Notes under the pieces: generated by a model | Told to the model about the DNA's origin: nothing | Database searches by the model: none | The model's input: only the letters and a program-made list of their open reading frames with translations | Position numbers and translations under genes: made by a program | In this document: in pieces, positions 1,468 through 59,479 of the stretch | Layout: the number at the start of each line of letters is the position of its first letter | Numbering within the stretch: the first letter of the stretch is position 1 | DNA from: Desulfoscipio gibsoniae DSM 7213 | GTDB lineage: Bacteria; Bacillota; Desulfotomaculia; Desulfotomaculales; Desulfallaceae | Length of the DNA stretch: 64,000 nucleotides | Assembly: GCF_000233715.2 (NCBI RefSeq) | Contig: NC_021184.1 | Location: 4,460,001-4,524,000 of the forward strand | Direction of reading: 5' to 3'

Positions 1468-2346
1468 CTACAACTTTTCTATGGCATTTCGTAAGTGGTC
1501 TGCTGATGTGTGAGTATAAATGGTTGTGGCCCTCAGGTTTGCATGTCCAAGCAGTTTGCTTATTCGTAAAAGGTCTACCTGCCCGTTCTTATAAAGCATG
1601 GTAGCAAAGCTATGTCTAAAAACATGCGGAGTTACTTGTGCCGGGTCAATACCTGCTTTAACAGCATATTTTTTTACCATTTTCCGTATATATTGTGTAC
1701 TTAAAGGAACTCCATTTTTGTTTGGAAACAGGTATTTTGAGGTGCTCAACCTTTTAGCTATGTAATAACCAATAACTTTTTGCAGCTCATTATGCATCGG
1801 TATAATTCTGCATTTACCACCCTTACCTTGCCTTATAGATAAGTCATGTAATTCAGCCACATCGTTAACTGCCAAGTGTACTAATTCGGAAACCCTGAGC
1901 CCCGCGTAGTACATGGTCATCAACATAGTATAGTCCCGAAGGCCACTATAGGTACTTAGATCAACACACTTACAGATTTTCTGTATTTCTTCCTTGCTTA
2001 AATAACGTGGCATTCCTTCGGGGATTTTAGGTGCATGTAAACGATCAGCAAAGTTTTCGTTTATTAGCCCCTCTAAAAATAAAAATTTACAAAATGATTT
2101 TAAAGTAGCAATGTTACGCATCATAGTACGAGGAGAATAATTTTTCTCTTTTTTAGCGTATAGCAAGTATTTGCGAATTATAAAAATATTACAGTCACTT
2201 AATAATACGTATCTACCCAAGGATTTTTGAAGGTAGTTTTGAAAGTATTTTAAATCTTTTTTATACCCGTCTATGGTATATGGACTACGCTGTAATTCAA
2301 TAGTTAAAAAATTAATAAAGGCTTCTACTGCATCTGAAAACAGCAT
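1468..2346 (-). CDS. Tyrosine recombinase, XerC/XerD-like
   Basis: A two-domain tyrosine recombinase. The N-terminal SAM-like core-binding domain (about residues 5-90, pattern LQRSPYTIDGYKKDL) is followed by the catalytic domain with Arg in YAGLRVSELV, Lys in GKGGK, HVFRHSFAT (H-x-x-R), LGHANLRATTIYTH (His and Tyr nucleophile). All catalytic residues are present. The start at 2346 is preferred over the Met at 2352 because GAGGTG at 2354-2359 leaves only 1 nt to the latter but 7 nt to the former. It is divergent from, and paralogous to, the recombinase at 2409-3341. Such enzymes resolve dimers, integrate phages or invert DNA; the target here is unknown. Confidence 0.9.
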   Translation of the reverse strand: MLFSDAVEAFINFLTIELQRSPYTIDGYKKDLKYFQNYLQKSLGRYVLLSDCNIFIIRKYLLYAKKEKNYSPRTMMRNIATLKSFCKFLFLEGLINENFADRLHAPKIPEGMPRYLSKEEIQKICKCVDLSTYSGLRDYTMLMTMYYAGLRVSELVHLAVNDVAELHDLSIRQGKGGKCRIIPMHNELQKVIGYYIAKRLSTSKYLFPNKNGVPLSTQYIRKMVKKYAVKAGIDPAQVTPHVFRHSFATMLYKNGQVDLLRISKLLGHANLRATTIYTHTSADHLRNAIEKL

Positions 2347-2363
2347 GGACATTCACCTCGATT

Positions 2364-2392
2364 ATATTATGGGCAGCAGTCAGCCATAATAT
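2364..2392. promoter_or_regulatory. dif-like inverted repeat between the divergent recombinases
   Basis: Perfect 9-bp arms ATATTATGG and CCATAATAT flank an 11-bp spacer. The site lies in the 56 bp between the two divergent recombinase genes. Arms of this size around a short centre resemble a tyrosine recombinase crossover site, but an operator for shared control is equally possible. Confidence 0.45.
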
Positions 2393-2408
2393 TCCGGAGG
2401 CAATAATA

Positions 2409-3341
2409 ATGTGTAAAACTAACTACCAAGCAATAATTAATCTTCAATGGGGTAGGATTGTGGACATGTATCTGTTACATCTACAGCATGACCTAGAAAG
2501 GAGCCCGGAAACCGTTTCGGGATACCGGAAAGATCTGTATCACTTTGGCAATTGTTTAATTGAACACAACGGACCAGAAATAACACCCCAAAAAATAGGG
2601 CCAATGGATATATGGCTTTATCTAAGGCATTTGTCATTAGACCATAATTATGCCCCACGGAGCCGAATTAGAAATCTAGCTTCAATCAAAAGTTTCTATA
2701 AGTTTCTTAAAAATAATGATTACGTTAAAAAGGACCCTTCCGCCAATATACAGTGGCCCTCTATACCACAAAGTGAACAACCGGTTTTTTTTACAGTACA
2801 AGATTTTAAAAAAATAATTGGAGCCATTAACACAAGCACCAAAACCGGTTATACCCATTCGGTAATAATCTATGTATTATTTCTAACTGGTCTACGGATT
2901 AGTGAAGCACTATCATTAAAGCTGAAAGATATTGATTTGCGCAAAAAAATCATTAATGTTACCCGGGGTAAGGGACGTAAAAAGCGTATTGTGCCAATTA
3001 ATAAAGCATTATATCCAGTGCTAAAGGATTATAAAAAAGAGCTTAAAAAGGGGAAAGAGGATTGGTTGTTCCCTTCTAAAAGATCGGTTACTGGCCGGAT
3101 GACCCCCCAGAATGTAAGATTATTTATTAAGAAATATTGTCGTAAGGCCGGGATCGAAAAGGCCAAAATGAGCCCACATGTATTTCGCCACGGATTTGCA
3201 ACCACACTGTATATGGATAAAGGTGTTGATTTATTACGCATAGCTACGCTACTTGGACACAGCAACACAAGAACAACTGAAATTTACGCTCATACCAATG
3301 AAAAACATTTAAGAAGTGCAGTTGATTTAATAGACTTATAA
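2409..3341 (+). CDS. Tyrosine recombinase, XerC/XerD-like
   Basis: A 310-residue recombinase, clearly related to its divergent neighbour: LERSPETVSGYRKDL in the core-binding domain, LTGLRISEAL (Arg), GKGRKKR (Lys), HVFRHGFATTLY (H-x-x-R), LLGHSNTRTTEIYAHT (His and Tyr). It carries about 20 extra N-terminal residues compared with the neighbour. The ATG at 2409 has GGAGG about 8 nt upstream. Two paralogous recombinases transcribed away from a common inverted repeat suggest a XerC/XerD-like heteromeric pair or two separate integrases. The function is inferred only. Confidence 0.9.
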   Translation: MCKTNYQAIINLQWGRIVDMYLLHLQHDLERSPETVSGYRKDLYHFGNCLIEHNGPEITPQKIGPMDIWLYLRHLSLDHNYAPRSRIRNLASIKSFYKFLKNNDYVKKDPSANIQWPSIPQSEQPVFFTVQDFKKIIGAINTSTKTGYTHSVIIYVLFLTGLRISEALSLKLKDIDLRKKIINVTRGKGRKKRIVPINKALYPVLKDYKKELKKGKEDWLFPSKRSVTGRMTPQNVRLFIKKYCRKAGIEKAKMSPHVFRHGFATTLYMDKGVDLLRIATLLGHSNTRTTEIYAHTNEKHLRSAVDLIDL

Positions 3342-3462: not shown

Positions 3463-3530
3463 GTAAGTATTCCCAAAACCGACCCGAGCAAAAAAACAGC
3501 CGGGCGATCCGCATGGGACCTCCCGGCAGT
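3463..3530 (-). repeat. Dispersed hairpin-repeat family, inverted copy with terminator
   Basis: On the minus strand, a hairpin terminator (GCCGGG...CCCGGC with loop AGGTCCCATGCGGATCG and a run of T) runs directly into GCTCGGGTCGGTTTTGGG. Both parts recur at the right end of the window (62.5-64 kb), and the terminator part recurs at 10.4 and 10.8 kb. Confidence 0.7.
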
Positions 3531-3599
3531 TCTTGTTCAATTCAGCGTCAGACCAAAGTTATCAAATAACTTATTAACTAAGTGCTGACCCCTTATTCC

Positions 3600-4430: not shown

Positions 4431-4634
4431 GTTTCAGAGGTATTAACTAACGGCTTCTTTCAGTATGAGGTGGACTGGGATTCCGGGGATTTGGTGACCG
4501 TACAAAACAAAGCCTGGAATCTGACCATGGATACTAGGATTACAGAAGTTGAAGAAACCTATGAGACTGGTGGGTTTAAGCTCAATGTTACCTTTGGCCA
4601 CACCCTCCCCAGTAAAACAATAGGTAATTATTAG
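4431..4634 (+). pseudogene. 3' remnant of a phage tail gene (Gp37-like)
   Basis: The plus-strand frame ending at TAG 4632-4634 reads VLTNGFFQYEVDWDSGD, then VTVQNKAWNLTMDTRITEV and GFKLNVTFG. This matches the C-terminus of the intact tail gene at 55106-56203 (VLTAGPFKYRDDWDVGD, VTVQNKAWDLTMDTRITEV, GFKLNVTFG). The upstream part of the gene, the holin and the amidase are missing here. This is the trace of a second, related prophage whose right end persisted next to the recombinase. Confidence 0.85.
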
Positions 4635-4704
4635 TGAGATATAACTTGCTAACATGCCAAAGTAATTTTAATATGCTACTACCAATCCAGAGGGAGGGAG
4701 AAAA

Positions 4705-5562
4705 TTGTTGTTAAACCAAGCAATCAAGAGCTTTGCCAGGCACATGGAGCTTATCGACAGGTCCCAGGAAACCATCCGGGGCTACACCATAGAACTGAAG
4801 AACTTTAATAACTTTTTAACCGTCAAGCACAACTGCCCGGTTTATGTAGAGGACATTACCTTACAGGATATCGAGGACTACCTGCTGCATGAAAAAGAAA
4901 GAGGGATTGCCTCCGCCAGCAGGAGCCGGGCTTTGTACATTCTAAAAAGCTTTTTTAACTACTGCTGCAAAAAAGACATTTGCACTAAGAACCTGGCCAA
5001 TCTCCTAGAACCCGTCAAGGTCAAGCAAAAAGAAAGGGCTCATATTACTGAAGCGGAATTTGAAGATCTGGTCAAAGCCATAGAGCACCCGGTAATTCGC
5101 ACCGTGGTCCAGACTATGTTCTATACCGGCGGTAGGATGTCTGAGATTATTAAATTAAAGCTGGAGAACGTGGACCTTGAAAACAAAGTGCTGCACATCA
5201 TTGAAGGCAAGGGCAAAAAAGACCGGGATGTGCCCATTAACGATAAGCTCCACCGGATTCTTACCCACTACTTGGAACACATCAGGGAGGCAGATTCAGA
5301 CCGTTTTTTCGCCATAGCCAGAACCGGCAAGGTCTCCAGCAGCTATATTAATCGCTGTATTCATGATGCTGTAGCAAAACTGGGCTGGGAAAAGGACATA
5401 AGTGCCCATGTGATGAGACACTCCTTTGGCACTAACTTACTGGAAAAAGGAGCCTCGGTGGTCAGTATTCAAAAACTCCTGGGGCATGCCAGCCTAGCGG
5501 TGACCACCAGATACCTGCACCAGGGCACAAATAAACTCAGCGAAGCCGTTAATCTTTTGTAA
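4705..5562 (+). CDS. Tyrosine recombinase, module A copy
   Basis: A 285-residue integrase-type protein. Core-binding domain at about 1-90 (RSQETIRGYTIELKNF); catalytic domain with Arg in FYTGGRMSEII, Lys in GKGKKDRDVP, HVMRHSFGTNL (H-x-x-R), LLGHASLAVTTRYLH (His and Tyr), so it should be active. The TTG start at 4705 follows GAGGGAGGGAG and matches the ATG position of the module B copy (57472). The two copies have equal length and are strikingly alike. It lies directly after a phage tail remnant and 15 nt before its companion gene. It is either the integrase of the lost phage or a recombinase dedicated to this locus. Confidence 0.9.
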   Translation: MLLNQAIKSFARHMELIDRSQETIRGYTIELKNFNNFLTVKHNCPVYVEDITLQDIEDYLLHEKERGIASASRSRALYILKSFFNYCCKKDICTKNLANLLEPVKVKQKERAHITEAEFEDLVKAIEHPVIRTVVQTMFYTGGRMSEIIKLKLENVDLENKVLHIIEGKGKKDRDVPINDKLHRILTHYLEHIREADSDRFFAIARTGKVSSSYINRCIHDAVAKLGWEKDISAHVMRHSFGTNLLEKGASVVSIQKLLGHASLAVTTRYLHQGTNKLSEAVNLL

Positions 5563-5577
5563 AGGGGGGAGAAAAAC

Positions 5578-6336
5578 TTGAGTGAGAAAAAACCGATTTA
5601 CGATGCCAAAGTCAAAAAAATCCTGGAGATGTTAAAGTTCAAGAACCGCGATGAGGTGGCAGCAGAATTAAAGTACAAGAACTGGAAAAGCCTTGATATG
5701 TACATGCGCAGGAAAAACTTTACCTACGATAAAAGGCAAGGCCAATACATCCCAGCCCACACCAGAGTTGAGAAATTAAACCGAGATCCGAAAAGTTACG
5801 CGCCGGGAAAAGTAGTTAGCATTATTACCGCTTTTGAAGAAGAGGACGTAGATCCCAGGCTAGTAGCCAAACAGGAGGGATTTAAAGACCACAAAGAAAT
5901 GGCCGAATACATGAAAAACAAGGGTTATGAGTGGAACGTTTACAAAAACAATTATGTTAAAATGGTGGGCAAGGTTGAGGACGGAAATTACGTTGCAGTT
6001 CCACCACCAGAGCCAATTAATCAACCAGCGGGAGGAAAAACACTGGAAGGGATAGAAGAATACCTCCCCTTCCTCCGCTTCTTGTATGAAAAACGGGACG
6101 ATATTTACCAGCTTTTATCAGGCACCAGGGAAGACGGCAAAATACCGAGGTATGCTGTTCCGGGGCTGGTCAGGACCAAAGCTATTTACATGAGCGATAT
6201 GATTGCCAAGCTTGCCGGGGAGTTTAGCAAGGAGAAGAACATCACCCAACGGGAAGTCATGGAAGCGGCCTTGGTGGAATACCTGATGAAGTATGGGTTT
6301 AAGCGGGAGGTCGAGGCGCTTTTGAAGAATTTGTAA
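5578..6336 (+). CDS. Recombinase companion protein with internal duplication, unknown family
   Basis: This 252-residue protein is not assigned to a named family. An N-terminal unit (about 12-60, ending DMYMRRKNFTYD...GQYI) and a second unit (about 79-128, ending AEYMKNKGYEWN...NNYV) share spacing and residues and look like duplicated helical, possibly HTH-like, modules. The linker is proline-rich (VPPPEPINQP). The C-terminal part (EVMEAALVEYLMKYGF) resembles a short helical dimerisation or ribbon-helix-helix segment. The TTG at 5578 follows GGGGGGAG. It sits 15 nt after the recombinase, and the same pair recurs in module B. A DNA-binding accessory or directionality factor is inferred, not shown. 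Confidence 0.75.
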   Translation: MSEKKPIYDAKVKKILEMLKFKNRDEVAAELKYKNWKSLDMYMRRKNFTYDKRQGQYIPAHTRVEKLNRDPKSYAPGKVVSIITAFEEEDVDPRLVAKQEGFKDHKEMAEYMKNKGYEWNVYKNNYVKMVGKVEDGNYVAVPPPEPINQPAGGKTLEGIEEYLPFLRFLYEKRDDIYQLLSGTREDGKIPRYAVPGLVRTKAIYMSDMIAKLAGEFSKEKNITQREVMEAALVEYLMKYGFKREVEALLKNL

Positions 6337-6365
6337 AAATATTTCTTCTAGGGGATTGTTTTTAT

Positions 6366-6373
6366 GGTACAAT
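6366..6373 (+). promoter_or_regulatory. Extended -10 promoter of the module A cargo gene
   Basis: TGG-TACAAT at 6365-6373 is an extended -10 motif. The surrounding stretch (TAAAAATATTT... TTTTTATGGTA) is conserved after the companion gene of module B (59129-59166), although the downstream genes differ. This suggests a shared promoter feeding a variable cargo slot. Confidence 0.5.
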
Positions 6374-6412
6374 GTTTATTTACCAGATATAATAGAGATA
6401 GGTGGTGATGGA

Positions 6413-7399
6413 GTGAAAGTTCAGAACCCACACGATAAATTCTTCAAAAAGACCTTTGGCGATGTAGCCGTGGCCAAGGATTTTTTAAATAATTATTTGC
6501 CTCAAAGCATCACGGATATAGTAGACGTGGACACATTGGAGCCGCAGAAAGACAGCTTTATTAACAAAGAGCTACAGGAAAGTTTTTCGGATCTCCTTTT
6601 TAAGGCCAATATCAATAAACGGGAAGGCTACCTTTATTTTCTCTTTGAACATAAAAGCTATCCCAGCCGGGATGTTGCTTTTCAGCTCCTAAAATACATG
6701 GTAGAAATTTGGAACGCCAAGATTGAAAATACCAATCAACTGCCGGTAATTATTCCGCTGGTAATATACCACGGCAAGGACGGCTGGAACATAAAACATA
6801 CTTTAGGGGAAATGCTTTCGGGCTATGAGGAACTGCCAAGGGATGTCCAGGCACACATTCCAAATTACAAATATCTGCTTTATGATTTTTCTAGGTTTAC
6901 TGATAGGGAAATAAAAGGTGAAGTAAGAAACAAAATAACAGTGACGATAATGCGGGATATGCCGAGAGAGGATATTGGCGAAATCCTAAAGTATGTTTTT
7001 AGAGCGGCTGTCTATTTGCTGGAGCTTGAAGATAAACAGACAGGGATAGAATATCTTGAGACCCTAGTCAGATATCTGCTCAGCGCTAGGGCTGATTTAA
7101 CCAAGGATGACTTCAATGAATTGGTTAAGAAAATCGAAACCATCTATCCGGAAGGGAGTGAAAGGATAATGACTTTAGCTGAACTGTTTAGGGAAGAAGG
7201 CATGGAGCGGGGAATAGAAGTAGGTGAAGCAAAAGCCCTTGCAAGGACTGCAATAAAGTTTTTAGTTAAGAAATTTGGTTTTGTGCCAGAGGATTTAAAG
7301 CAGGGTATAACGAAATTAGATGTACCAACACTGGAAGTTATAATTGACGGTGTATCGGAATATAAAGACCTCGATGAGGTAAAAAAATATATCCAGTAA
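6413..7399 (+). CDS. Rpn family recombination-promoting nuclease / putative transposase
   Basis: The N-terminus NPHDKFFKKTFGDVAVAKDF is characteristic of the Rpn (Transposase_31, PD-(D/E)XK-type) family. ANINKREGYLYFLFEHKSY contains the E-x-K of the nuclease core (FEHK). The C-terminal helical region (GMERGIEVGEAKALARTAI) is also typical. The GTG at 6413 is preferred over an upstream ATG because GGTGGTGATG precedes it and family homology starts here. Family members such as E. coli RpnA are Ca-stimulated DNases that promote RecA-independent recombination. The gene occupies the cargo position between the recombinase pair and the S-layer-like cassette. Confidence 0.85.
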   Translation: MKVQNPHDKFFKKTFGDVAVAKDFLNNYLPQSITDIVDVDTLEPQKDSFINKELQESFSDLLFKANINKREGYLYFLFEHKSYPSRDVAFQLLKYMVEIWNAKIENTNQLPVIIPLVIYHGKDGWNIKHTLGEMLSGYEELPRDVQAHIPNYKYLLYDFSRFTDREIKGEVRNKITVTIMRDMPREDIGEILKYVFRAAVYLLELEDKQTGIEYLETLVRYLLSARADLTKDDFNELVKKIETIYPEGSERIMTLAELFREEGMERGIEVGEAKALARTAIKFLVKKFGFVPEDLKQGITKLDVPTLEVIIDGVSEYKDLDEVKKYIQ

Positions 7400-7405
7400 C
7401 AAAAA

Positions 7406-7580
7406 CCTAAGAAAACCTTTATGAATAATAAGCTTATATTTCCTAACCCTATGGATAGTGCTGCTAATCATATCTACCAGAACTACAATGAAAAGGTAAG
7501 AAGCCCCCAAGCCCTTGTCCCATGCGGGTTTGCGGGGTTTTTAATATACACGAAACCAGGGGCTTTAGTGCTATTAACGC
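7406..7580 (+). repeat. Leader repeat before S-layer cassette A
   Basis: This stretch matches 59722-59910. Shared segments include AAGAAAA..T.TATGAATAAT, TCCTAACC.TATG, CATGCGGGTTTGCGGGGTTTT and CTTTAGTGCTATTAAC. Between GCGGGG and CTTTAGTGC, copy A has 25 nt and copy B 24 nt, so the leader is in different frames relative to the cassettes and is therefore probably noncoding. CCCC...GGGGTTTTT pairing inside it resembles a terminator hairpin. It may be a crossover or attachment site. Confidence 0.7.
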
Positions 7581-10317
7581 TAACAAAATTAAAGTAACAT
7601 TCAACAAGGCTGTTGAAGATACTACAAAAGCAACCTTCGCAGTAAAACGTGGTACGGTTACTGAAGAAGTAGCAGTAACTTGGAACGAAGCAAAAACAGA
7701 AGCAACCTTAACAAAAACAGGAAATTTTACTCCAGCTGAGTACACTGTGACTGTTGGTGGGGTTGTAGAAGCTACCAATACTGTCACAATTGCAGCAGAA
7801 GAAGTTAAGAGCGTAGTTATCAATACTACTCAGTTACAAAAATCAGCTACTGCTCCAGTGTCAATTGATTTCATCAACCAATATGGTGAGAAAGCAACTG
7901 TCGCTGCAAATGATACCAAATTGACTCTAACTGCTTACAACAAAACTGCTGGCGTTGCATTAGCTCAAGTCCCTGCTAAATTCCAATTTAATGCGGCTGC
8001 AGCTACTCTTAAAGATGAAGTTGTAATTACGGTAATGTACAAAGGTATTACCCAAACAGCTACAGCCATTGTTGTGAATGCTGCTACTGTTGGAAATGTA
8101 ACATTGGGAGAAGCCGTGTTACCAACTGGTAAGACAATGTTCACACCGACAGGAACTAAAGATGTTGAATTAGCTTATACAGCTACTAATACACTTGGTG
8201 AGGCTTATAAACTAACAGCCGCTGACAAAACAAGTGGAGCTGTACAATTCTTAAGTTCAGACAACACGATCTTAAACCCAGCGGATATCTCAATCGATAC
8301 TAACAATAAAATTAAAATCGCTAAATTTGGTAAAGCTGGTACTGTTACATTGACAGCACTTACACCAGCTACCGGTGCATCAACTACAACTACTGTCGTA
8401 GTAAATGAAGATGCTGGCGCAGCATACGGATTAACTTTAGAAAAAGCTGCAGCAGACTTCCCAGCTGGTTCCATAACGCCATTCTATGTAACACAAACTG
8501 TGGTTGATAAGTATGGTACTGCTATTGCACAGAAAGACTTAAAAACAGCAGATTATACCGTCTCAACAAATAACAGTTCAGTTGCTACTGCAGCATTTGA
8601 AATTACACCAGGTACTGACTATGGTAAAATCAAAATCACTCCAGCCGCTGCAGCTGTCAAAGGTAACTCAGCAACGATTACTGTAACTGTCAATGCTACT
8701 GGTAATCAGGCAACATTATTAGTGACTGCTAGTGATGCAGCTGTACCATCAAGTGTTGACACCAAAAAGAATACAACCGTTTCAACTAACATGTTAACTG
8801 GTGCAACACAAACATTGAGTTTTGATGTAAAAGACCAATACTCCACAACCTACACAGCAGGCGTAGCAGGATATACTGTTGAGTACACAACCAGTGATTC
8901 TAGTGTTATTGCAATCACTTCTAACGAAACTGCAAAAGATGCTATAAATACAGCTGCAGTTGATGTGAAAGCACTGAAAGCTGGTTCTGCTACCATTAAG
9001 GCTACATTGAAAAAAGATAGCGTAGCAGTTGCTGAAAAGGCTTACACGATCACAGCTATAGCAAATAGCTCTGCCGGACTTACTTACAGTGTAGAAGCGC
9101 CAACTCCTGCATATAAAGGATTACTTTCTAAGGATATCGTTGGCGAAACACTTGGTGATGCTGGTGCCGCAACCTTAACAACAAACGCTGATAAAGAGCG
9201 TGCTATTAAATCTGGTTATGCAGCAGAAGTTGCTCTGTATGCAACAGATGCAAATGGCGTAAAAACCTTAGTTCCATCTAGCGCCTTAGTCGGAGGAGCC
9301 CCAACTATTACTCAAGCACAAAAAGCGGATGGAACAGGTGCTGCGACTGTTCAGGTAGCTGTATTTGAATATAATAATAAATACTACGTATATACCTCAA
9401 CAGCAGCCGCTGCAACTGACTTTGAAGTTACTGTAAATGGTACTAAAGTTACACAAGATGTAAAAGCAAAACTAGAGTTTACAATCAACGCAGATGATAC
9501 TATCAAAACTATTTCACAAGATGTCACAATTTCAAAAGATGCTTTAAAAGCACAATCCATCGAATTTAAATCAGCTGCACCTGGAACAACCACTGCAACT
9601 GATGTAACAGCAATCACTGTAGCTGACTACGCTGCATATACGACTGCGCTAACTACAAAGGCTTATGTATGGGTAAAAGACCAATTTGGTGGCTACTCAT
9701 TATCTGATACAGGTACTGAAGCTTCTGCCTTCTTATCTGTCGTAGACTTAACAGATGTAACAGGCGCAAGTAACGACACAGTAGTTATTGGTGGGGCAGC
9801 TGCTGCACAAGATGGTGTAATTACTATTACTGATACCGGTAGTAATACTGTAATCAATAAAAATGGCGGTGTAGTACGTATTATTGCTAAGACTGGAGCT
9901 TTAACAGACTTTATCAACTTAACAATTGGGAAAGAGAACGTAAAACCAACACTTGACTCAGTAGTATTAGCAAACGGTAGTGGAACTGCAGCAACATTGG
10001 ACGTTAATGACACTATTACATTAACATTCAGTGAAGCAATGACAACTACTGGAAATGCAACTTTTGCTATGACAAACGGTGTTGTAACCTTACTTGATAC
10101 CACTACATTAACATTTGGTACAGTAGGTGTTAATGCTGGAACTGGAACGGTTGCATGGAGCGCAGATGGTAAAGTCGCTACATTGACTTTCACTGCTGTA
10201 ACAGATGCAACAACCGCTCCATCAGGTGCTGTTACTCCTGGAGCAGTTGTGTTAAAGGATGCTAATGGCAACCTAACTGCAACAACAGCTAGTGCTGCCG
10301 CAACAGGCACATTCTAG
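7522..10317 (+). CDS. S-layer-like Ig-repeat cassette A, no credible start or signal peptide
   Basis: A long open frame rich in Thr, Ala and Val with SbsC/Big-type Ig-like repeats. It begins near SAINANKIKVTFNKAV, the typical entry of S-layer surface domains, followed by further beta repeats (INQYGEKATV, VKDQYSTTYTAG, FSEAMTTTGNATF). There is no signal peptide, SLH domain or stalk domain. The ATG at 7522 lies in a leader that is out of frame in the second copy and has no ribosome site, so translation from it is doubtful. The frame is intact over 2.7 kb, arguing against simple decay. It is best read as the 3' part of an S-layer gene or a silent cassette. A terminator follows at 10407. Confidence 0.75.
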   Translation: MRVCGVFNIHETRGFSAINANKIKVTFNKAVEDTTKATFAVKRGTVTEEVAVTWNEAKTEATLTKTGNFTPAEYTVTVGGVVEATNTVTIAAEEVKSVVINTTQLQKSATAPVSIDFINQYGEKATVAANDTKLTLTAYNKTAGVALAQVPAKFQFNAAAATLKDEVVITVMYKGITQTATAIVVNAATVGNVTLGEAVLPTGKTMFTPTGTKDVELAYTATNTLGEAYKLTAADKTSGAVQFLSSDNTILNPADISIDTNNKIKIAKFGKAGTVTLTALTPATGASTTTTVVVNEDAGAAYGLTLEKAAADFPAGSITPFYVTQTVVDKYGTAIAQKDLKTADYTVSTNNSSVATAAFEITPGTDYGKIKITPAAAAVKGNSATITVTVNATGNQATLLVTASDAAVPSSVDTKKNTTVSTNMLTGATQTLSFDVKDQYSTTYTAGVAGYTVEYTTSDSSVIAITSNETAKDAINTAAVDVKALKAGSATIKATLKKDSVAVAEKAYTITAIANSSAGLTYSVEAPTPAYKGLLSKDIVGETLGDAGAATLTTNADKERAIKSGYAAEVALYATDANGVKTLVPSSALVGGAPTITQAQKADGTGAATVQVAVFEYNNKYYVYTSTAAAATDFEVTVNGTKVTQDVKAKLEFTINADDTIKTISQDVTISKDALKAQSIEFKSAAPGTTTATDVTAITVADYAAYTTALTTKAYVWVKDQFGGYSLSDTGTEASAFLSVVDLTDVTGASNDTVVIGGAAAAQDGVITITDTGSNTVINKNGGVVRIIAKTGALTDFINLTIGKENVKPTLDSVVLANGSGTAATLDVNDTITLTFSEAMTTTGNATFAMTNGVVTLLDTTTLTFGTVGVNAGTGTVAWSADGKVATLTFTAVTDATTAPSGAVTPGAVVLKDANGNLTATTASAAATGTF

Positions 10318-11242: not shown

Positions 11243-13018
11243 TCAGCGCACACCATGTAAGAATCCATAGCGGCCATGTTCTGTGTCCTTTGTAAAAGTG
11301 ATTAGGTTGGCACCGGTATAATCCAAATCCGGGGGTTCGTTTTCAACAATAATAACTTGACCTTTATGCTGGTTATCAAGCAGATATTGGAATAGGCCTG
11401 CTTTCATACTATCCGGTGCGCTCTCATCCCCTCGTTCCTTTAATGAGAGGATAGGTGAATCCACAACCAATAGTCCCGGCGCATATTTCCCCTGCTCCAC
11501 CAAATATTCCATGAGTGTGACTGCAAGTACAGTATTTAAGAACGCCCGATACCCTTTACCAAAACTTTCCTTTGGTTTTCCGTTTACAACCACATCAAAT
11601 TCCCTAGGGTCAAAAAATGCAGATCCAAATCCCTCGTACATACACAAATCCAAAATATCGTTTAGGCGTTCATCTAGCGTGCCTAAAATATTGCTGCTGA
11701 ACTGGTTCTTTATTTTAAATTCTAACTGTGATTCATCCTCCATTTGTACGTTGAATAGCTCAGTCTTTATGTTAGTTTCAAATTTGTCAATAACAGTTGT
11801 TTCATTTTGGATTTCGATGGCCCGGCGATATTCAGCCAATGTTTTCTTAAGTGCTGCCACCTTGGGCTTTAGTTCACTGTTGAGTAAATCTTCGATCCCC
11901 CATCTTTCATGATTCAAATCTGCAAGCCTTGCCTCAAGAGCAGAGCGCTCTTTGACGATGTCTTCATTGGCCTCCTTAAGATCGGAAAGTTGCAGCTGTA
12001 TTCTATGCAGTTCCGCATGTGATGCCTCGATGTAACCCTTCTCAATCTCCACGGGAACATTGCTTTCGCAGAACGGGCATTTTGACACTTCCTTGACATT
12101 CCCCCTGTTTAACTCCCCTTCAACAATAAAGGCTAAACGTTTTACATCTGCGGCATACTGGCTCCCCAGGGCCTGGTACCGGTTGTAAAGGGTATTGCAC
12201 TCCGCCAATTGTGCATTTACCGAAAATATTTCTTTCAACAACTGTTTATTGTGCTCAATGGCCCTGGCGATGGCTTTTTCGGTTTCAGCAATATCATCAA
12301 GTACTGTTTCAACCTTGGCTTGAAGATCCAAAGCACCGTAAGGAATATTTCCCAGCTCTTCTTTTCGGTCGGCAAAGGTTATTAGCTGTTTATGCATATA
12401 ATCAACCAATGCTTTTCTTCGGGCCTCCGATATTTCCTTTTTCTCAAGGGGTTCTTCCTCGGCAAAATCTATTCCTGTGATCAGAAAGAATAATGCACTG
12501 AGTGCTGCTGTTGCGGAGGTATTCTGTCTCGGAAGAATAATGGACCGCTCCTGTAAAACACTTGTTTCCTTGATAAGGAACATGTGTGAAAATGTTCTCC
12601 AGGTAAGCCTTTGTTTCTCAAATCTTGAGTTTTTTATAATATCGTGTTCTTCCTCTATTCCAATTAGTTGGAGCCACAAATCACTGATATTATTCTTTTT
12701 ACCGCTGGTTTTATAGGTACCAGACATAATATCATAGGCGTCACTATGCACTTCAATTCTATTGGTATCTAGTTGGCGGCTTAATGTAACTTTACGACCT
12801 TCAGTTGCGATAATAAGTTTTATCCGGTCATACCCGGCGGTTCTATCAAAACGAATTCTATCGCTGCCAAACAAATAGTCCAGGCATTCTAAGACATAAC
12901 TTTTACCGGTATCAGATGGCCCGCAAATAATATTAAGACCCCGCTCAAACTCCAGGATGGAAGGTTCCTTGCCGCTGCCCATCACGATTAATTTTTCAAT
13001 ATGGAACTTAGACATCAT
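11243..13018 (-). CDS. ABC-3C system SMC/Rad50-like ATPase (DUF3732 type)
   Basis: The 591-residue protein has an N-terminal ABC ATPase half with Walker A GPSDTGKSYVLE near residue 34. A long coiled-coil insertion carries a Rad50-like zinc-hook motif (CPFC near residue 318). The C-terminal half has SFGKGYRAFLNTVLAV and Walker B LLVVDSP. This is the arrangement of DUF3732 ATPases in ABC-three-component systems, predicted to sense and respond to foreign DNA or other invasion signals. It overlaps the middle component by 11 nt and is translationally coupled to it. Start MM at 13018/13015 follows GGGGTG. ATP-driven conformational control of a toxic partner is inferred from the family. Confidence 0.85.
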   Translation of the reverse strand: MMSKFHIEKLIVMGSGKEPSILEFERGLNIICGPSDTGKSYVLECLDYLFGSDRIRFDRTAGYDRIKLIIATEGRKVTLSRQLDTNRIEVHSDAYDIMSGTYKTSGKKNNISDLWLQLIGIEEEHDIIKNSRFEKQRLTWRTFSHMFLIKETSVLQERSIILPRQNTSATAALSALFFLITGIDFAEEEPLEKKEISEARRKALVDYMHKQLITFADRKEELGNIPYGALDLQAKVETVLDDIAETEKAIARAIEHNKQLLKEIFSVNAQLAECNTLYNRYQALGSQYAADVKRLAFIVEGELNRGNVKEVSKCPFCESNVPVEIEKGYIEASHAELHRIQLQLSDLKEANEDIVKERSALEARLADLNHERWGIEDLLNSELKPKVAALKKTLAEYRRAIEIQNETTVIDKFETNIKTELFNVQMEDESQLEFKIKNQFSSNILGTLDERLNDILDLCMYEGFGSAFFDPREFDVVVNGKPKESFGKGYRAFLNTVLAVTLMEYLVEQGKYAPGLLVVDSPILSLKERGDESAPDSMKAGLFQYLLDNQHKGQVIIVENEPPDLDYTGANLITFTKDTEHGRYGFLHGVR

Positions 13019-13463
13019 TCACACCCCTTTGCAGCCAGGTAAATGCGTTACGGTTAATCATTTCAAAAATTTGCCGCTCCGATTTTTGTGCTATGTAGCC
13101 CTGTGTTCGTTTAGCAAGATAGCGGTATGTTTCAGCATAATGATTTGTAAACCGTGAACAATAATCCTTTCCTTTTTGATTTATCGAATATAAAAAACCC
13201 CTTTGTGAAGACGCTACATCAATTAGGCCGGTTAGGACAAGTTGTTTAACAGCTTTTTTAACTAGTTCACGGCGGAGCGGGAATTCACTGTATTTGAAGG
13301 CACTGTCCCCATGAAGATCGTTATCTGATATTTCAAAATCCTTACCATAGACCGTTATAAAATCAGCTGCGGCTATCATATCAGCTGTCTGGATTAAGCC
13401 GGTTTCTAACATTAATAAAACACGCAGTGAGATCTCAAATGGGGTGTTAAATATATTATTCAT
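13008..13463 (-). CDS. ABC-three-component system middle component
   Basis: A 151-residue protein resembling ABC-3C middle component 2: FNTPFEISLRVLLMLE at the N-terminus, ITVYGKDF in the middle, then REL...AVKQLVLTGLID winged-helix-like features and LAKRTQGYIAQ near the end. It overlaps the upstream gene by 8 nt and the ATPase by 11 nt, so the three are translated as a unit. In ABC-3C systems the middle component links the ATPase to the third, effector-bearing component. The assignment rests on sequence pattern and gene order. Confidence 0.8.
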   Translation of the reverse strand: MNNIFNTPFEISLRVLLMLETGLIQTADMIAAADFITVYGKDFEISDNDLHGDSAFKYSEFPLRRELVKKAVKQLVLTGLIDVASSQRGFLYSINQKGKDYCSRFTNHYAETYRYLAKRTQGYIAQKSERQIFEMINRNAFTWLQRGVNDV

Positions 13464-14466
13464 TCCTTAACACCCACCCTTCAATCTCGCCATCGTTTAC
13501 CAGAATGTGGCAGACCCCTTTTTTCTCACTGGCTCCGACCCATTTTAGCGGCTCACATAGCCAGCATTTGTTAACCTGGATAACAGCTGCATGAGCCATT
13601 ACACCATTCATCCGGGCAAAACCGTGTTTAAAATCATTATAGTAAATATCAATAATGCCATTGTATGTCTCTTCTTTTAAGGTTTCAAATTGATCTGGTT
13701 CCGTCATACCAAAAATATCCCTTGCATCTCTCCTTACGGTTTCAGCGGCATAGTAATCTTTTCTTCGCCGTTCAAAATCTTTTTTATATCTGGGATATCG
13801 GTCAAGTAATTCTTTTGACAAATCAGTTAATTTCTCGGCTTCTGCATAGGCTGCCAACAATTTTGTGACATAGGTCAACTCATGTTTTTGAATTTCTTCC
13901 GGTGGTGTTAGGGGAGGAGGGCGTAAACCATGGGATTTACTCAATATGGCCTTTAGTGCCTTTACTTCATCCACAATGGTTGGAATTCCGCCATTTGTTT
14001 GCTTGTCCCCCGTTAGTTTATTAGGCTTCTTTATTGCATACAGAAAAACCTCGGAAAGAAATCTAGCTAATTTTTCTCCCTCCGCAAGGGCCAAGAAATC
14101 TTTCTTTTTATTTTGTGGAATCTTAGTGTCCTGGGAGATAAGTTTAGTAAGTTCATGCACCAGATCAGAGGTTAAATCAGGTGTAATGGCAGGTATGACC
14201 ACGTCTTCAAAGTAATCGTGGGCGGCGTCAATGATTAATTTGGAGCTAGCCGCTTTTTTAATTTTATTATGTACTTGAGCATTAAGCCCTAATAACTGAT
14301 TGGCGATTTTAGCCGTAACCACATATGGTTCACCTATTTGATTTGTGATAACAACATTATCAAGAATTAGGCCCAGCAGGAGCTCCGTTACCTCCACTTG
14401 GCTGTCAGAACCTTTGATTACCTTTTGAACAGCTCTAGCGTATGTACCAAAACACAGCCCGACCAC
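13456..14466 (-). CDS. ABC-three-component system third component (effector/CTD protein)
   Basis: A 336-residue protein, first gene of the operon. The mainly helical body (REL-like charged segments, DRYPRYKKDFERRRKDYYA) ends with a compact domain, MAHAAVIQVNKCWLCEPLKW, containing a C-x-x-C, followed by VGASEKKGVCHILVNDGEI; this is the pattern of ABC-3C C-terminal-domain proteins. The N-terminal region should carry the effector but I do not recognise a catalytic motif. The GTG start at 14466 has AAGGGGG 7-8 nt upstream. The gene order (third component, middle component, ATPase) supports the call. Confidence 0.75.
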   Translation of the reverse strand: MVGLCFGTYARAVQKVIKGSDSQVEVTELLLGLILDNVVITNQIGEPYVVTAKIANQLLGLNAQVHNKIKKAASSKLIIDAAHDYFEDVVIPAITPDLTSDLVHELTKLISQDTKIPQNKKKDFLALAEGEKLARFLSEVFLYAIKKPNKLTGDKQTNGGIPTIVDEVKALKAILSKSHGLRPPPLTPPEEIQKHELTYVTKLLAAYAEAEKLTDLSKELLDRYPRYKKDFERRRKDYYAAETVRRDARDIFGMTEPDQFETLKEETYNGIIDIYYNDFKHGFARMNGVMAHAAVIQVNKCWLCEPLKWVGASEKKGVCHILVNDGEIEGWVLRNE

Positions 14467-33913: not shown

Positions 33914-33941
33914 GAGGTTTTTTTAATCGGAGGTGATGCCC

Positions 33942-35498
33942 TTGCTCTACAGCGAAGAAAAGGTAAATCACGTTGTCGATTTTATCCGGCAACTAAAACA
34001 CACCAAAGGTAAATGGGCAGGACAGCCTTTTGAATTAATTCCATGGGAACTTGATTTAATAAAACAAACCTTTGGCACCTTAAGGGAAGACGGCACCCGG
34101 CAGTACAGAACCGTGTATACAGAAATTGGAAAGAAAAATGGGAAATCCTCGATCGCCGCTGCCATTGCCCTGTATATGCTCTTAGCCGATGGGGAGCCAA
34201 ACGCCGAGGTCTATGTAGCCGCTTGCGACCGGCAACAGGCCAGTATAATTTTCAATACCAGTGTTAATTTCGTGGAGGGTAATCAGACCCTTTCGAGGGT
34301 GACTAAAACCATCATGTCCACCAAAAGAATTGTCTACCCTAGAACCGGTAGTTTTTATCAGGTGTTAAGTTCAGATGTAAAATCCAAGTCAGGACTTAAC
34401 CCATCTTGCGTTATCCTCGATGAAATCTGGACTTATCCAAACCCTGACCTGGCCAAGATGTTGACCACTGGTTCCGGTGATGCCAGGGAGCAGCCCCTGT
34501 TTATCTATTTAACCACGGCGGGTAACAAGCTGCAGGGCTACGGCTGGGAGATGCATTGCAAGGCCAAGGATATTTTAGCCGGAAGAAGAATTGACCCCAC
34601 TTTCCTGCCTATCATTTATGGTCTGGAGGAAGATGACGATTGGGAAGATGAAGCCAACTGGTATAAAGCCAACCCAAGCCTGGGCCATACCATTCAAATA
34701 GAGCGGGTCAGAGAACATTTCTTGCAAGCCAAACAAGACCCGGCGGAGGAAGCACTTTTTAAACAGCTGCGACTAAATATGTGGCTGAAACAACAGATCA
34801 AGTGGATGCCCATGGATACCTGGGCTAAATGCGCTCACCCGGTAGACCCGGATATGCTCAAAGGTAGGGTTTGTTTCGGCGGGCTAGACTTATCCAGTTC
34901 CACTGACATCACCGCCTTTGTGCTGGTGTTTTCACCGGTGGCTGGGGACGACAAGTATTACGTTCTCCCCTACTTTTGGCTGCCGGAGGAAACCTTAGAT
35001 TTACGGGTGCGCAGGGATCATGTGCCCTACGACATCTGGCAGCGGCAAGGATACCTGTTAACCACCGAAGGCAATGTCATCCACTACGGTTTTATTGAAA
35101 AATTTATCGAAGAGCTGGGCCAGGATTACAACATCCAGGAGATTGCCTTTGACCGCTGGGGTGCTGTGCAGATGGTGCAGAACCTGGAGGGTGCCGGATT
35201 TACCGTGGTTCCCTTCGGCCAGGGCTTTAAAGATATGTCCCCACCCACCAAAGAACTGATGAAACTGACCCTGGAGAGAAGAATTGCCCACGGTGGCCAC
35301 CCGGTGCTGGCCTGGATGATGGATAACATCCATATCCGTACCGACCCTGCCGGTAATATCAAGCCGGACAAGGCCAAATCAACAGAGAAAATTGACGGTG
35401 CAGTGGCTATGATTATGGCGCTAGACCGATGCATTCGGAATGAAGGAGTGAGCAAAGACAAATCGGTGTATGATGAACGGGGTTTAGTGGTGTTTTAA
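33942..35498 (+). CDS. terL: Phage terminase large subunit
   Basis: 518 residues from TTG 33942 (GGAGGTG about 6 nt upstream); GTG 33933 or ATG 33936 are possible. The ATPase has Walker A EIGKKNGKSSIAAAI, Walker B CVILDEIWTYP and coupling motif LTTAG. The nuclease half has FGGLDLSSSTDITAF and FDRWGAVQMVQNLE, with late acidic residues. Typical of HK97/P27-associated terminases. It cuts and translocates DNA into the prohead at the portal. Confidence 0.93.
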   Translation: MLYSEEKVNHVVDFIRQLKHTKGKWAGQPFELIPWELDLIKQTFGTLREDGTRQYRTVYTEIGKKNGKSSIAAAIALYMLLADGEPNAEVYVAACDRQQASIIFNTSVNFVEGNQTLSRVTKTIMSTKRIVYPRTGSFYQVLSSDVKSKSGLNPSCVILDEIWTYPNPDLAKMLTTGSGDAREQPLFIYLTTAGNKLQGYGWEMHCKAKDILAGRRIDPTFLPIIYGLEEDDDWEDEANWYKANPSLGHTIQIERVREHFLQAKQDPAEEALFKQLRLNMWLKQQIKWMPMDTWAKCAHPVDPDMLKGRVCFGGLDLSSSTDITAFVLVFSPVAGDDKYYVLPYFWLPEETLDLRVRRDHVPYDIWQRQGYLLTTEGNVIHYGFIEKFIEELGQDYNIQEIAFDRWGAVQMVQNLEGAGFTVVPFGQGFKDMSPPTKELMKLTLERRIAHGGHPVLAWMMDNIHIRTDPAGNIKPDKAKSTEKIDGAVAMIMALDRCIRNEGVSKDKSVYDERGLVVF

Positions 35499-36261: not shown

Positions 36262-37509
36262 GTGGCCTCTAACATGAAAATACCCATCTTATCCAAGCTG
36301 TTTAAACCCAGGGCCAGTCCCAAGAACACCTTCTGGCAAAACGCCTACACCTTTTTCTTCGGCCCTACGCCCAGCGGCAAAACCGTCAACGAGCGCACGG
36401 CCATGACCACCTCAGCTGTATATGCCTGTGTGCGGGTATTGTCAGAAACCATCGCTTCACTGCCTCTGCACACATACAGGCGCACCGAGCGGGGCAAGGG
36501 AAAAGCCATGGACCATAACCTCTACTACCTACTCCATGACGAACCTAACCCGGAGATGACCTCATTTGTGTTCAGGGAAACACTTATGGGTCATCTTTTA
36601 CTTTGGGGCAACGCCTATGCCCAGATTATTCGGGACGGCAGGAGCAGGGTGATTGGTCTTTATCCTTTATTGCCCGATCGCATGGAGGTAAGCCGCACAG
36701 AAAAAGGCGAGCTCTACTACCGCTATCAAAAGGAAGGCCGAGAATATTTGTTGCGCCGTGAAGAAGTGCTGCACATTCCGGGTCTTAGCTTTGACGGCTT
36801 GGTGGGCTACTCCCCCATCGCCATGGCCAAAAACGCCATCGGTATGGCCCTGGCCACCGAAGAATACGGTTCCAAGCTTTTTGCCAACGATGCCCGGCCC
36901 AGTGTGGTCTTAGAACACCCGGGTGTACTGAAAGACCCGGCTAAAATCAGAGAGAGCTGGAACCAAATCTACCGGGGCAGCGAAAACGCCCATAAGGTAG
37001 CGGTACTGGAAGAAGGAATGCAGGTAAAAACCTTAAGCATTCCCCCGGAACAGGCCCAGTTTTTAGAAACCCGCAAGTTCCAGATTGAGGAAATCTGCCG
37101 CATTTTCCGGGTACCACCCCATTTGGTGGCCAGCCTGGACCGGGCTACTTTCAGCAATATAGAAAGCCAAAGTATTAGTTTTATTGACAACACCATTGTT
37201 CCTTGGGTTTCTCGCTTTGAACAAGCCATGCAAAAGGCTCTGTTTTCAGTTAGAGAAAAACAGCAATATTTAATCAAATTTAATTTGAACGGTAGGTTGC
37301 GTGGAGACGCCCAATCCCGTGCTGCTTATTATCAAACCATGCGGCAAAACGGCATTATGTCAGCGAATGACATCCGAGAGCTAGAAGAGATGAACTTAAT
37401 TCCGGATAAATTAGGCGGAAATAAATATTTAGTCAACGGAAATTTTGTAGATATGGCTGATGCCGGGGCTTGGAGTGAAAAATATGGAAAGGAGGCTACC
37501 GATGCATAG
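36262..37509 (+). CDS. Phage portal protein, HK97 family
   Basis: 415 residues: NERTAMTTSAVYACVRVLSE, then PLHTYRRTERGKG, PNPEMTSFVFRETLMGHLLL, LHIPGLSFDGLVGYSP and IPPEQAQFLETRKFQIEEIC, the standard HK97-type portal motifs. It forms the DNA entry ring. GTG 36262 is next to AGGAGG; ATG 36274 is a plausible alternative start. Overlaps the protease gene by 8 nt. Confidence 0.93.
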   Translation: MASNMKIPILSKLFKPRASPKNTFWQNAYTFFFGPTPSGKTVNERTAMTTSAVYACVRVLSETIASLPLHTYRRTERGKGKAMDHNLYYLLHDEPNPEMTSFVFRETLMGHLLLWGNAYAQIIRDGRSRVIGLYPLLPDRMEVSRTEKGELYYRYQKEGREYLLRREEVLHIPGLSFDGLVGYSPIAMAKNAIGMALATEEYGSKLFANDARPSVVLEHPGVLKDPAKIRESWNQIYRGSENAHKVAVLEEGMQVKTLSIPPEQAQFLETRKFQIEEICRIFRVPPHLVASLDRATFSNIESQSISFIDNTIVPWVSRFEQAMQKALFSVREKQQYLIKFNLNGRLRGDAQSRAAYYQTMRQNGIMSANDIRELEEMNLIPDKLGGNKYLVNGNFVDMADAGAWSEKYGKEATDA

Positions 37510-45832: not shown

Positions 45833-48800
45833 ATGTCAGATGTCGGGGATCTAAATGTACGGATCAACCTTGATGCCCTGGGCTTTCAAAACGGGATCAG
45901 TAAAATCAATACGGAAATGAAAAAACTGCAATCGGAGTTTAAGCTGGCCGGTGCCCAATTGGGTAAACACGGCAGTGAGCTGGACAAATTACGGCTTAAA
46001 TCCGATAACCTGACCAAAGGAACGGAGCTGCAAAGGCAAAAGGTGCAAGCCTTAGAAGAAGCCCACCGGAAGTCTGTGGAGGCCAAAGGCAGTGATGCCA
46101 AGGCTACCCAGGAGCTGGAAATTAAGCTAAATCAAGCTCGCGCCAGGCTAGTGACCATGGAGCAGAACTTGGAAGAAGTTAATAACGAGATAACCCTCCA
46201 GTCATCCAGCTGGTACAAGCTGGGCAAAGAGCTGGAAGCCGCCGGACAAAAGATGCAGGCTGTGGGCCAAAAGATGGAGCAGGCCGGAAAAGAACTCAGC
46301 ATGAAGGTTACCATGCCCCTGGTGGGTTTAGGAGCTGCTGCGGCAAAAATCGGCTCGGACTTTGAAGCCGGGATGAGCGAAGTGCAGGCCATCAGCGGAG
46401 CCACCGGCACTCAATTAGAAATGCTGGAAGAAAAGGCCAAGGAAATGGGTGCCACCACCAAATTCAGCGCCGCCCAGTCGGCAGAAGCATTAAAGTACAT
46501 GGCCATGGCTGGTTGGGATACTGGTCAGATGCTAGATGGTTTAGATGGCGTCATGATGCTGGCTGCTGCCAGTGGCGAGAACTTGGGTACCGTTTCCGAT
46601 ATTGTCACCGATGCCCTGACCGCCTTTGGCATGCAGGCAGGCCAGGCAGGTGAGTTTGCCGACCTTCTGGCCAGCACTTCTAGTAGCGCCAACACCAATG
46701 TTTCTATGTTAGGGGAGTCCTTTAAATATGTGGCTCCCCTTTTTGGTTCACTGGGTTATTCGGCAGAAGATGCAGCCCTGGCTCTAGGCTTAATGGCTAA
46801 TGCGGGTATCAAAGGGAGCGAATCAGGTACTGCACTAAGGGGTGCTATTGCTAACTTAGCTAATCCCACAGCCGGTATGGCCAAAGCCATAAATGAACTG
46901 GGCCTCACTATTACTGATGCCAGCGGGGAAATGCTACCCTTTAAAGATGTGATGGACCAGCTAAGAACTGCCTTTGCCGGGCTTACCGAAGAGCAAAAAG
47001 CCCAATATGCTGCCACCATCTTTGGTAAGGAAGCCATGAGCGGCATGCTGGCCATTATCAACTCCAGTGAAGAAGACTACGCCAAACTGACCCAGGCTAC
47101 CAGGGAATACAACGGTGTGGCCAAAGAAATGGCCGAAACTATGGAAGCAAACCTGCAAGGGCAGCTGACAAAATTAAGATCAGCTCTGGAAGGTGTAGGC
47201 ATACAAATTTTTGAGATCCTGCTTCCCCATCTAAATAAGCTGGTGGAGATGCTGCAATCCTTGACCGATAAATTTGCCAGTCTTAGCCCCGCTACCCAGG
47301 AAACCATCGTAAAAATTGCCGTTCTTGTCGCAGCCATCGGGCCGCTTTTACTTATCGGCGGTAAACTTATCGGTGTTATCGGTGCTGTTGTGGGTGCGCT
47401 GTCCACAGTATCCGGGGCTATTGCTGTGGCCAGCACTGGAGCAGTTGCAGCAACACCTGCCATTGGAGCCTTAGCCACAGCATTTACAGTTTTAACAGGG
47501 CCGGTGGGAATTGCGGTTGCTGCTATTGCCGGAGTTACCGCAGCAGGCGTAGCTTTATACAAACACCTAAGCCAGGAAGGCATCCCGGCCATTGAACTCT
47601 TTGACGATGAAGTATCGGAATCCACCCAAAAAGCTGTGGGTGGTTTTTTAGCGCTTAACGACCAGGCTACTTTAGCTTTAAACCAATTATCCTGGAGTGG
47701 TCAGGAAGTTACCAAGGAGATGGTGGACAACATTGCCGGGAACTTCTCACAGATGGCTTCACAAGTACAAGCCGGACTGGATAAACACCATCAAGAATCC
47801 CTGGCGAAAATCCAAAACTTTGTCACCAGCAGCACAGCTTTATCTCAAGCTGAGCAGGACGAAATATTAAACAACATGCAGCAGGGCTATGAAACCAGGA
47901 AACAAACCATTGCTGAAGGCGAAGCCAGGATAAAGGAAATCCTGGATATGGCCAGTACAGAGAAAAGAGCCCTGACCAAAGCCGAGCAGGAAGAAATCAA
48001 TGCCATCCAAAGGCAGATGGTGGACACCGGCATCCAGGTCCTTTCCGAAAACGAAATCGAAGCCAAAGCCATTATGGAACGCATGAAAGCCCAGGCCATA
48101 GAGTTAACGGCTTTGCAGGCGGCAGAAGTGGTTAAAAACAGCATTGAGCAAAGGGACGGGGCCATTCAAGCGGCCAATGAGCAGTATGATCAGGTGATCA
48201 AGGAAATCATCCGGCAGCGCGATGAAGCAGGCACCATCTCTAAAGAACAGGCCGATAAATTGATTATCGAGGCCACCAGGCAAAAGGACGAGTCTATAGC
48301 CAAAGCCGAAGAAATGCACCTGCGGGTTGTTGCCGAAGCCCAGGCCCAAGCCCAGGAACACGTCAATCAAGTTGATTGGGAAACAGGAGAAATCAAGACC
48401 AAATGGCAGGTTATGCGTGACGATATATTCGCCAAGGCCGGAGCAATTAAAGAAAACGTCTTTACCACCTGGGAGGAAATTAAGACCAACACCTCCCAGC
48501 AGTGGGAAAGTATCCGTACGACCATGAGCGACAGGTGGAATGACATTAAAACCAATACCTCCGAAACGGTAGCCGCTATTAAAACCAATGTCAGCATCAC
48601 CTGGGATGAGGTTAAGACCAAAACCTTTGAAACCTGGGACAACATCAAAACCAAAACTGCTGAAACTTGGCAGGCCATACAAAATAAAATCGATGAACAC
48701 GGCGGCGGTATTAAGGGCCTTATTGGAGCCTACACCGAGGGATATAAATCCGTTTGGGACAGTGCCTTGACCACCATGGAGGAAATCACCGGCATCAAAT

Positions 48801-59467: not shown

Positions 59468-59479
59468 AGGTGATGAATT

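Follow-up and report, generated by a model that had tools for sequence, protein, structure and literature searches.

Prophage ends in Desulfoscipio gibsoniae suggest that lysogeny exchanges the exposed tail of an S-layer-type surface protein

The stretch of Desulfoscipio gibsoniae DSM 7213 analysed here (NC_021184.1, positions 4,460,001 to 4,524,000 of the forward strand, 64,000 nucleotides in all; hereafter the window) contains two related loci, A and B. Each comprises a tyrosine recombinase, a companion protein, a cargo slot, a leader repeat and an S-layer-like open reading frame (ORF) that lacks an N-terminal head, in identical order (Table 1). The two recombinases share 77% identity over 285 residues each, with copy B counted from the ATG at 57472 (the TTG start chosen by the ORF caller gives 303), and the companions share 74%. 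At the DNA level the loci are joined by two repeats of 300 nt at 77-78% identity and by repeats of 192 nt (73%), 139 nt (76%) and 45 nt (80%). The cargo differs, with an Rpn-type nuclease gene at A and a DUF4160 gene followed by a second small gene at B. A preliminary description had noted this shared order and homology, the recombinase length and the differing cargo, all of which the ORFs, identities and DNA repeats bear out. It also placed a Gp37-like tail sequence at both loci; the gene is intact at B (Pfam Sipho_Gp37), and only its C-terminal remnant is left at A.

Each leader contains a terminator-like hairpin, the 100 bases upstream of the core folding at -25.1 kcal/mol at A and -24.0 kcal/mol at B, and runs up to a 16-mer core, CTTTAGTGCTATTAAC, in whose frame the headless cassette lies open. 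Across 14 aligned leaders, three of the 13 hairpin pairs are changed on both sides, and up to four sequences break a pair. The whole genome (4,855,529 bp) holds four exact copies of the core and one copy with a single mismatch, the latter also with a leader. At up to two mismatches there are 10 matches, five of them without a leader, against two for a reversed-pattern control. Extended -10-like sequences, TGGTACAAT at A and TGGTATAAT at B, were spotted upstream of the cargo by eye only.

The stretch from core A to core B is a 52.3-kb siphoviral prophage with its integrase at the end. Its genes match terminase, portal, tape measure, tail, holin and endolysin families in PHROGs, and the capsid is recognised by Pfam; together with the integrase they make up the gene set of a temperate tailed siphovirus. 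Because this intervening DNA is a prophage ending in an integrase, modules A and B are best seen as the right ends of two related phages. From the sequence, phage A is mostly deleted, and prophage B appears to lie in tandem behind its remnant. The earlier picture of one module duplicated in two copies thus holds as far as the two related loci go and fails on their nature, since they are right ends of two phages and a third module lies elsewhere in the genome. Local duplication of a cassette was considered and ruled out, because the repeats are only 73-80% identical and 52 kb of phage separates the copies.

The third full module occupies genome positions 4570-4575 kb on the minus strand and forms the right end of a further prophage, C, with integrase C, companion C, cargo, leader, core and headless cassette C. 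At its left end, 59.55 kb from this right end, a core without a leader (4629613, minus strand) lies inside an intact S-layer-type ORF of 1205 residues with a signal peptide recognised by eye. The first 214 residues of this gene are the head; the remainder is a tail situated between the two cores. Less than 2 kb past it come an IrrE-type gene (Peptidase_M78), a helix-turn-helix-like gene and a series of ORFs ordered like those of the window phage. A pattern for head-type cores had two matches in the genome, of which one is the left end of prophage C and the other lies in an unrelated 91-residue ORF; it revealed no head attached to cassettes A, B or C. When used as a query, the head was present in one of 41 genomes, its own, in two copies. 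Of the cassettes, only A was used as a protein query; its matches were limited to itself, cassette C and a pair of leader relics. Two leaders in the genome lack a full module, and two open only 53-54 codons. At 4532-4534 kb a companion relic, an Rpn-type gene, a leader and a broken tail follow one another. Two candidates for a missing head or left site were dropped: in the genes behind 16 SLH matches, read whole or in part by eye, no core junction was seen, and a core-like site at window 973 (PILSLSAIT) lies in a stretch full of stops. The head of the prophage C left-end gene itself gave no SLH match.

A scan with the companion alignment yielded 24 loci from GTDB species genomes and seven from IMG/VR, and two of the prophages found elsewhere repeat the arrangement of prophage C. 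In Clostridium liquoris the left end bears an intact gene of 990 residues, in which there are three CWB2 stretches and VESVSAINAKE marks the core; 40.8 kb away, the right end has a headless tail of 655 codons. In Maledivibacter halophilus the left-end gene is 687 residues long and contains VESVSAID, and the right end, at a distance of 41.0 kb, carries a headless tail of 576 codons. Apart from these three, no prophage had both a head and two readable ends. In each, the left attachment site (attL) consists of head, core and inner tail, and the right (attR) of hairpin, core and displaced headless tail, for which no signal peptide was seen by eye. When the flanks are joined at the core, the resulting gene is open in three of three cases, for 1058 codons in prophage C, 1002 in C. 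liquoris and 688 in M. halophilus. At all five readable left ends (these three, prophage B and contig C22 of Tissierella), a tail adjoins the left-end genes of the phage; the left ends of Pelotomaculum and of genomes G114, G115, G122 and G112 were excluded, as their sequence stops before any tail.

The inner and displaced tails are unlike. No BLAST match at E 1e-3 links them in prophage C or Maledivibacter, and in C. liquoris they share 25% identity over 432 residues. Between prophages, cassette A is 48% identical to cassette C, and the inner tail of prophage C is 37% identical to cassette B. The change sets in at the core: UBA4916 (L079) and the viral contig L101 are identical at 190 of 190 bases before it and at 40% over the next 30. 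The bases common to left and right core number eight (GTGCTATT) in the least similar pair and 12-13 in the other two; the core codes for SAI. We picked 19 leader-core sites by eye (leader before core) from the own-genome core matches and a wider pattern search; the latter gave 33 places in 15 of 20 records, many of them unrelated, with eight for the reversed-pattern control. At 14 of the 19 sites at least 170 codons are open in the core frame, four of these frames running to the contig end.

With the head-type pattern, 10 of 17 genomes gave 14 matches in all, against five for the reversed-pattern control. By eye, eight of these are S-layer-type junctions, one lies in another Ig-type protein and five are unrelated; of the eight junctions, three are prophage left ends, two lie in intact genes, two are headless and one is at a contig end. 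When CWB2 heads are aligned, three natural tail-less proteins (the best three, out of five tail-less among 20 CWB2 loci) end on the two residues that directly precede the AI of the core, which places the core at a module boundary. A second head gene of D. gibsoniae (217 residues) and one of Desulfosporosinus BRH_c37 (127 residues) stop near the same point. Of the known cell-wall anchors (SLH or CWB2), CWB2 matches the C. liquoris and Tissierella genes; no anchor family was found in the D. gibsoniae or Maledivibacter gene. Head-only surface genes ending near the recombination point were also observed in several species (L301, L302, L303, L308, L309, and 4630867-4631514 in D. gibsoniae).

The DNA itself shows the gene order, the core positions, three prophages with an intact gene on the left and a headless tail on the right, the open joined site and the divergence of the tails. 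We consider it likely, on these grounds, that the modules are the right ends of temperate siphoviruses that use an attachment site within a host gene for a surface protein, and that lysogeny exchanges the exposed tail of this protein. The integrase, perhaps aided by the companion, would recombine the short core at the point where the head, comprising signal peptide and anchor part and joined to the tail through the SAI encoded by the core, meets the exposed tail. The phage would bring its own headless tail, in frame, directly after its core. Upon integration, host head, core and phage tail would form one intact gene at the left end, and the phage hairpin, core and old host tail, now without a signal peptide, would be left at the right end; excision would bring the old tail back onto the head. 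The exposed part would be the part swapped because the free attachment site (attB) would lie where the anchor or export part meets the exposed part. Applied to the window, prophage B would span core A (7563) to core B (59879), in tandem to the older remnant of phage A, with cassette A as phage B's own tail and cassette B as an older displaced one. We infer that the integrases act at these cores and that the inner tail travels with the phage; the intact left-end gene is presumably expressed and forms an S-layer, and the gain would be a changed phage receptor or antigen. Of the two readings first offered for this locus, surface-antigen switching by cassette exchange and repeated phage integration beside S-layer genes, the evidence favours a combination, in which phages integrate inside S-layer-type genes and not beside them and thereby exchange the tail. 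The expected joining of cassette-type tails to a secretion or anchor head was found, through the same core, in D. gibsoniae itself, C. liquoris and M. halophilus, but was not found for cassettes A, B or C.

Several observations weigh against this proposal. Two of the five readable left ends lack a head: leader A stands in front of prophage B, and a second recombinase in front of the Tissierella C22 core. Among the 31 companion loci, where what follows the companion was tallied by eye, 15 have a tail on the same strand, about six end too early and 10 have none, have it inverted or were not assessed. The companion was found in none of the INPHARED phages. The PHROG test covers the window phage, and the genes of C. 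liquoris, Maledivibacter and prophage C were assigned to phages by eye, from homologous ORF order. Five of the 19 leader-core sites open no more than 54 codons. Core identity, 0.95 across 18 of the 19 sites (one was too short and left out), is biased because the sites were chosen by the search pattern TTTNGTGCTATTA, and identity is similarly low on both sides of the core, at 0.44 for the 20 bases before it and 0.43 for those after. Among 20 CWB2 genes from C. liquoris and its relatives, the core occurs only in the gene that bears the phage, so free attB sites would be rare; two intact core genes have no adjoining phage end (Tissierella C32 and Desulfosporosinus C251).

The strongest competitor, which we nevertheless hold to be unlikely, is a switch run by the host, in which the recombinase would invert or exchange DNA between cores and so place silent tails on a single head, with the phage genes as passengers. 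One genome does hold four open tails (inner tail C and cassettes A, B and C) and an intact head with the same core, and since some cores face opposite ways, other tails could be joined to the head by inversion. In C. liquoris (L084) and Tissierella C22 a recombinase and a core-tail lie back to back, and Desulfosporosinus BRH_c37 has a hairpin, core and headless tail with recombinase and companion and no phage genes recognised nearby. Against this, the most closely related modules are found where phage lysis genes end, the recombinase-companion pair occurs in viral contigs, two cores bound a whole prophage in three cases, and no alternative junction was seen.

Some loci of this kind deserve description in their own right. 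On the reverse strand of contig C205 of Desulfosporosinus BRH_c37 (L282), the order is hairpin, core, a 1450-residue headless tail and then the related recombinase and companion; the 127-residue gene present in this genome is head-only, and the locus is possibly a non-phage version of the switch. Loci L084 and L283, with recombinase and core-tail back to back, amount to an inverted module layout. Acetobacterium dehalogenans has several leader-core-tail-like copies with no phage recognised around them. A scan of IMG/VR with the leader DNA pattern gave 13 matches, of which two are the contigs of L101 and L102 and the other 11 are not leader-like.

Ordinary integration into a conserved S-layer motif, with the inner tail merely keeping the gene working, as in phages that rebuild a tRNA gene or icd, and with no role for the surface change, would fit the intact joined gene at the left end of three out of three prophages. 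Such rescue needs only a short, similar piece, whereas the part supplied here runs to 570-990 residues and is at most 25% alike to the one displaced, and relatives of the pair are also found at pilin and flagellin genes; we therefore rate it as very unlikely. We give hardly any credence to the headless ORFs being phage structural genes or decayed scars unconnected to host S-layer genes: Ig-like domains do occur in phage proteins, no signal peptide is present on the ORFs, one copy (4533 kb) is broken and two genome leaders open only 53-54 codons, but cassettes A and B have no PHROG match, homologous tails sit on intact head-bearing genes in D. gibsoniae (G000) and Tissierella, and the Caloramator and pilin-locus ORFs are truncated flagellin or pilin.

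Exchange of the exposed tail by lysogeny may extend beyond S-layer genes. In Peptococcaceae BRH_c8a (L059/L089) and the viral contigs L170 and L171, the recombinase-companion pair is followed by a headless type IV pilin whose frame starts near the GFTLxE motif with no recognisable prepilin leader. By NCBIfam, L171 scores above the cut-off for the prepilin N-terminal motif and L059 matches pilin models below their cut-offs; the L170 ORF has no Pfam family match. At two Caloramator loci the pair is followed by a flagellin without its first part: in L097 the Flagellin_N match begins at position 27, and in L259 that of flagellin Hag, just under the cut-off, begins at position 19. At L259, ORFs resembling a phage lysis module (by eye) lie upstream of the pair. 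By analogy, tails may be swapped at pilin and flagellin genes too; it counts against this extension that only the right-end side was read there. More tentatively still, the integrase-companion family could be specialised on receptor-type surface genes (S-layer, type IV pilin, flagellin), cutting each at the end of its export or anchor part and installing an exposed part supplied by the phage, the lysogen thereby changing its own receptor, and the same recombinases could return parked tails to one head, giving a phage-driven antigen switch. We regard this wider idea as possible, with rather more doubt than confidence.

The recombinase scored 186 and 183.7 bits against the XerC and XerD models, below their curated cut-offs of 335.15 and 329.6. 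The companion matched phrog_2727 and no Pfam or NCBIfam family. Its AlphaFold2 model (mean predicted local distance difference test, pLDDT, 75; predicted template modelling score, pTM, 0.29) shows two similar helix-helix-helix-strand-strand units, which we read as winged-helix-like, and a helical C-terminus. By Foldseek, none of 134 matches reached E 0.05, the best being ScpB at 0.077, followed by DNA-binding domains. The companion may act as an accessory or direction factor. Between companion and leader, the genes found are of Rpn-type nuclease, DUF4160, Abi_2/AbiD and AAA-ATPase with PD-(D/E)XK type; by family assignment, this slot holds defence-type or toxin-type genes. Cargo B scored 82.1 bits against the NCBIfam toxin DhiT, under the cut-off of 100.

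Table 1. Positions of modules A and B and of prophage B genes, counted from the first nucleotide of the window.
Feature	Position	Strand	Evidence
C-terminal remnant of Gp37-like tail gene, older phage A	about 4435-4635	+	Frame by eye; intact homologue at 55106-56203
Tyrosine recombinase A, 285 residues	4705-5562	+	Pfam Phage_integrase 1.2e-35; PHROG integrase
Companion A, 252 residues, predicted DNA-binding-like	5578-6336	+	phrog_2727 (function unassigned); AlphaFold2
Cargo A, Rpn-type nuclease / Transposase_31	6356-7399	+	Pfam PF04754 5.5e-61; NCBIfam TIGR01784 above cut-off
Leader A	7412-7562	+	Repeat family D4; alignment of 14 leaders
Terminator-like hairpin of leader A, then T-rich bases	7499-7542	+	RNA fold; consensus hairpin
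Core A, right core of phage A and (proposed) left core of prophage B	7563-7578	+	Exact 16-mer
Cassette A, headless S-layer-type tail, read as prophage B's own	7564-10317	+	917 open codons in core frame
Prophage B body, including Lamassu and replication genes	10318-57340	+	PHROGs, Pfam, PADLOC
Terminase, prophage B	33933-35498		
Portal, prophage B	36262-37509		
Capsid, prophage B	from 38222		
Tape measure, prophage B	45833-49261		
Holin, prophage B	56251-56661		
Endolysin, prophage B	56654-57340		
Tyrosine recombinase B, 285 residues	57472-58329	+	77% identity to A; Pfam Phage_integrase
Companion B, 261 residues	58344-59129	+	74% identity to A
Cargo B	59147-59722	+	DUF4160 gene 59147-59467 and small ORF 59480-59719; Pfam PF13711 1.2e-24
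Leader B, with terminator-like hairpin at 59816-59858	59729-59878	+	Repeat D4
Core B, right core of prophage B	59879-59894	+	Exact 16-mer
Cassette B, headless S-layer-type tail, read as displaced older tail	59880-62528	+	882 open codons in core frame; Big_5 Ig-like domains (Pfam)

Other elements of the window lie around these features. Near the left end of prophage B, a Lamassu-type defence set occupies 11246-14466 on the minus strand, with LmuB, LmuC and LmuA recognised by PADLOC and ABC-3C parts by Pfam. The major capsid gene of prophage B is split by a group II intron and its reverse transcriptase (about 39158-41780, plus strand), and a group II intron structure (Rfam RF02005) lies downstream of cassette B at 63254-63440 on the plus strand. 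A G+C-rich terminator-like repeat (GATCGCCCGGC...) flanks the cassettes at 3481-3531, 62579-62680 and 63439-63546, and two more tyrosine recombinases, back to back and 31-34% identical to recombinase A, are found at 1468-3341.

Prophage e14 and phage 21 integrate within icd of Escherichia coli and supply a new 3' end, so that the gene stays intact. The prophages described here are alike in having an attachment core in coding sequence, an intact host gene at one prophage end (three of three) and an open empty site. They differ in that the e14 and phage 21 replacement is short, nearly the same and belongs to a metabolic enzyme, whereas here hundreds of divergent residues of surface proteins are concerned; instead of a replacement close to the original, we found 25% identity or no detectable similarity. 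Serotype-converting phages carry surface-modifying enzymes, and with them, too, lysogeny alters the cell surface and can block further phages, but they add modifying enzymes, whereas here integration itself would exchange the exposed part of a structural gene.

DNA rearrangement also alters S-layer proteins in Geobacillus stearothermophilus, as does inversion in Campylobacter, according to one account (PMC3919590); as portrayed there, those are plasmid-chromosome or inversion events on the host side, in contrast to the prophage ends and phage integrases proposed to act here. The same account describes a group II intron of Clostridium tetani whose splicing joins a single S-layer head to alternative exons downstream (PMC3919590). 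There, as here, a single N-terminal part meets several different tails, by RNA splicing in that case and by the proposed site-specific DNA recombination in ours. No description of prophage integration inside an S-layer gene with tail exchange was found in the open-access literature. Integration that supplies a new 3' end is of a known kind; what we did not find in that literature is its scale, the divergence of the tails and the way such events seem to extend across S-layer, pilin and flagellin genes.

If the proposal holds, a single DNA event would couple lysogeny to a change of the surface seen by phages and immune systems, which may explain S-layer genes that combine a constant head with very different tails. 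It would offer a testable route to superinfection exclusion by replacement of the receptor and not by modifying enzymes, and would provide natural integrase sites at the point where the anchor passes into the exposed part, in proteins of the S-layer, pilus and flagellum. A polylysogen like D. gibsoniae would then hold a set of parked tails.

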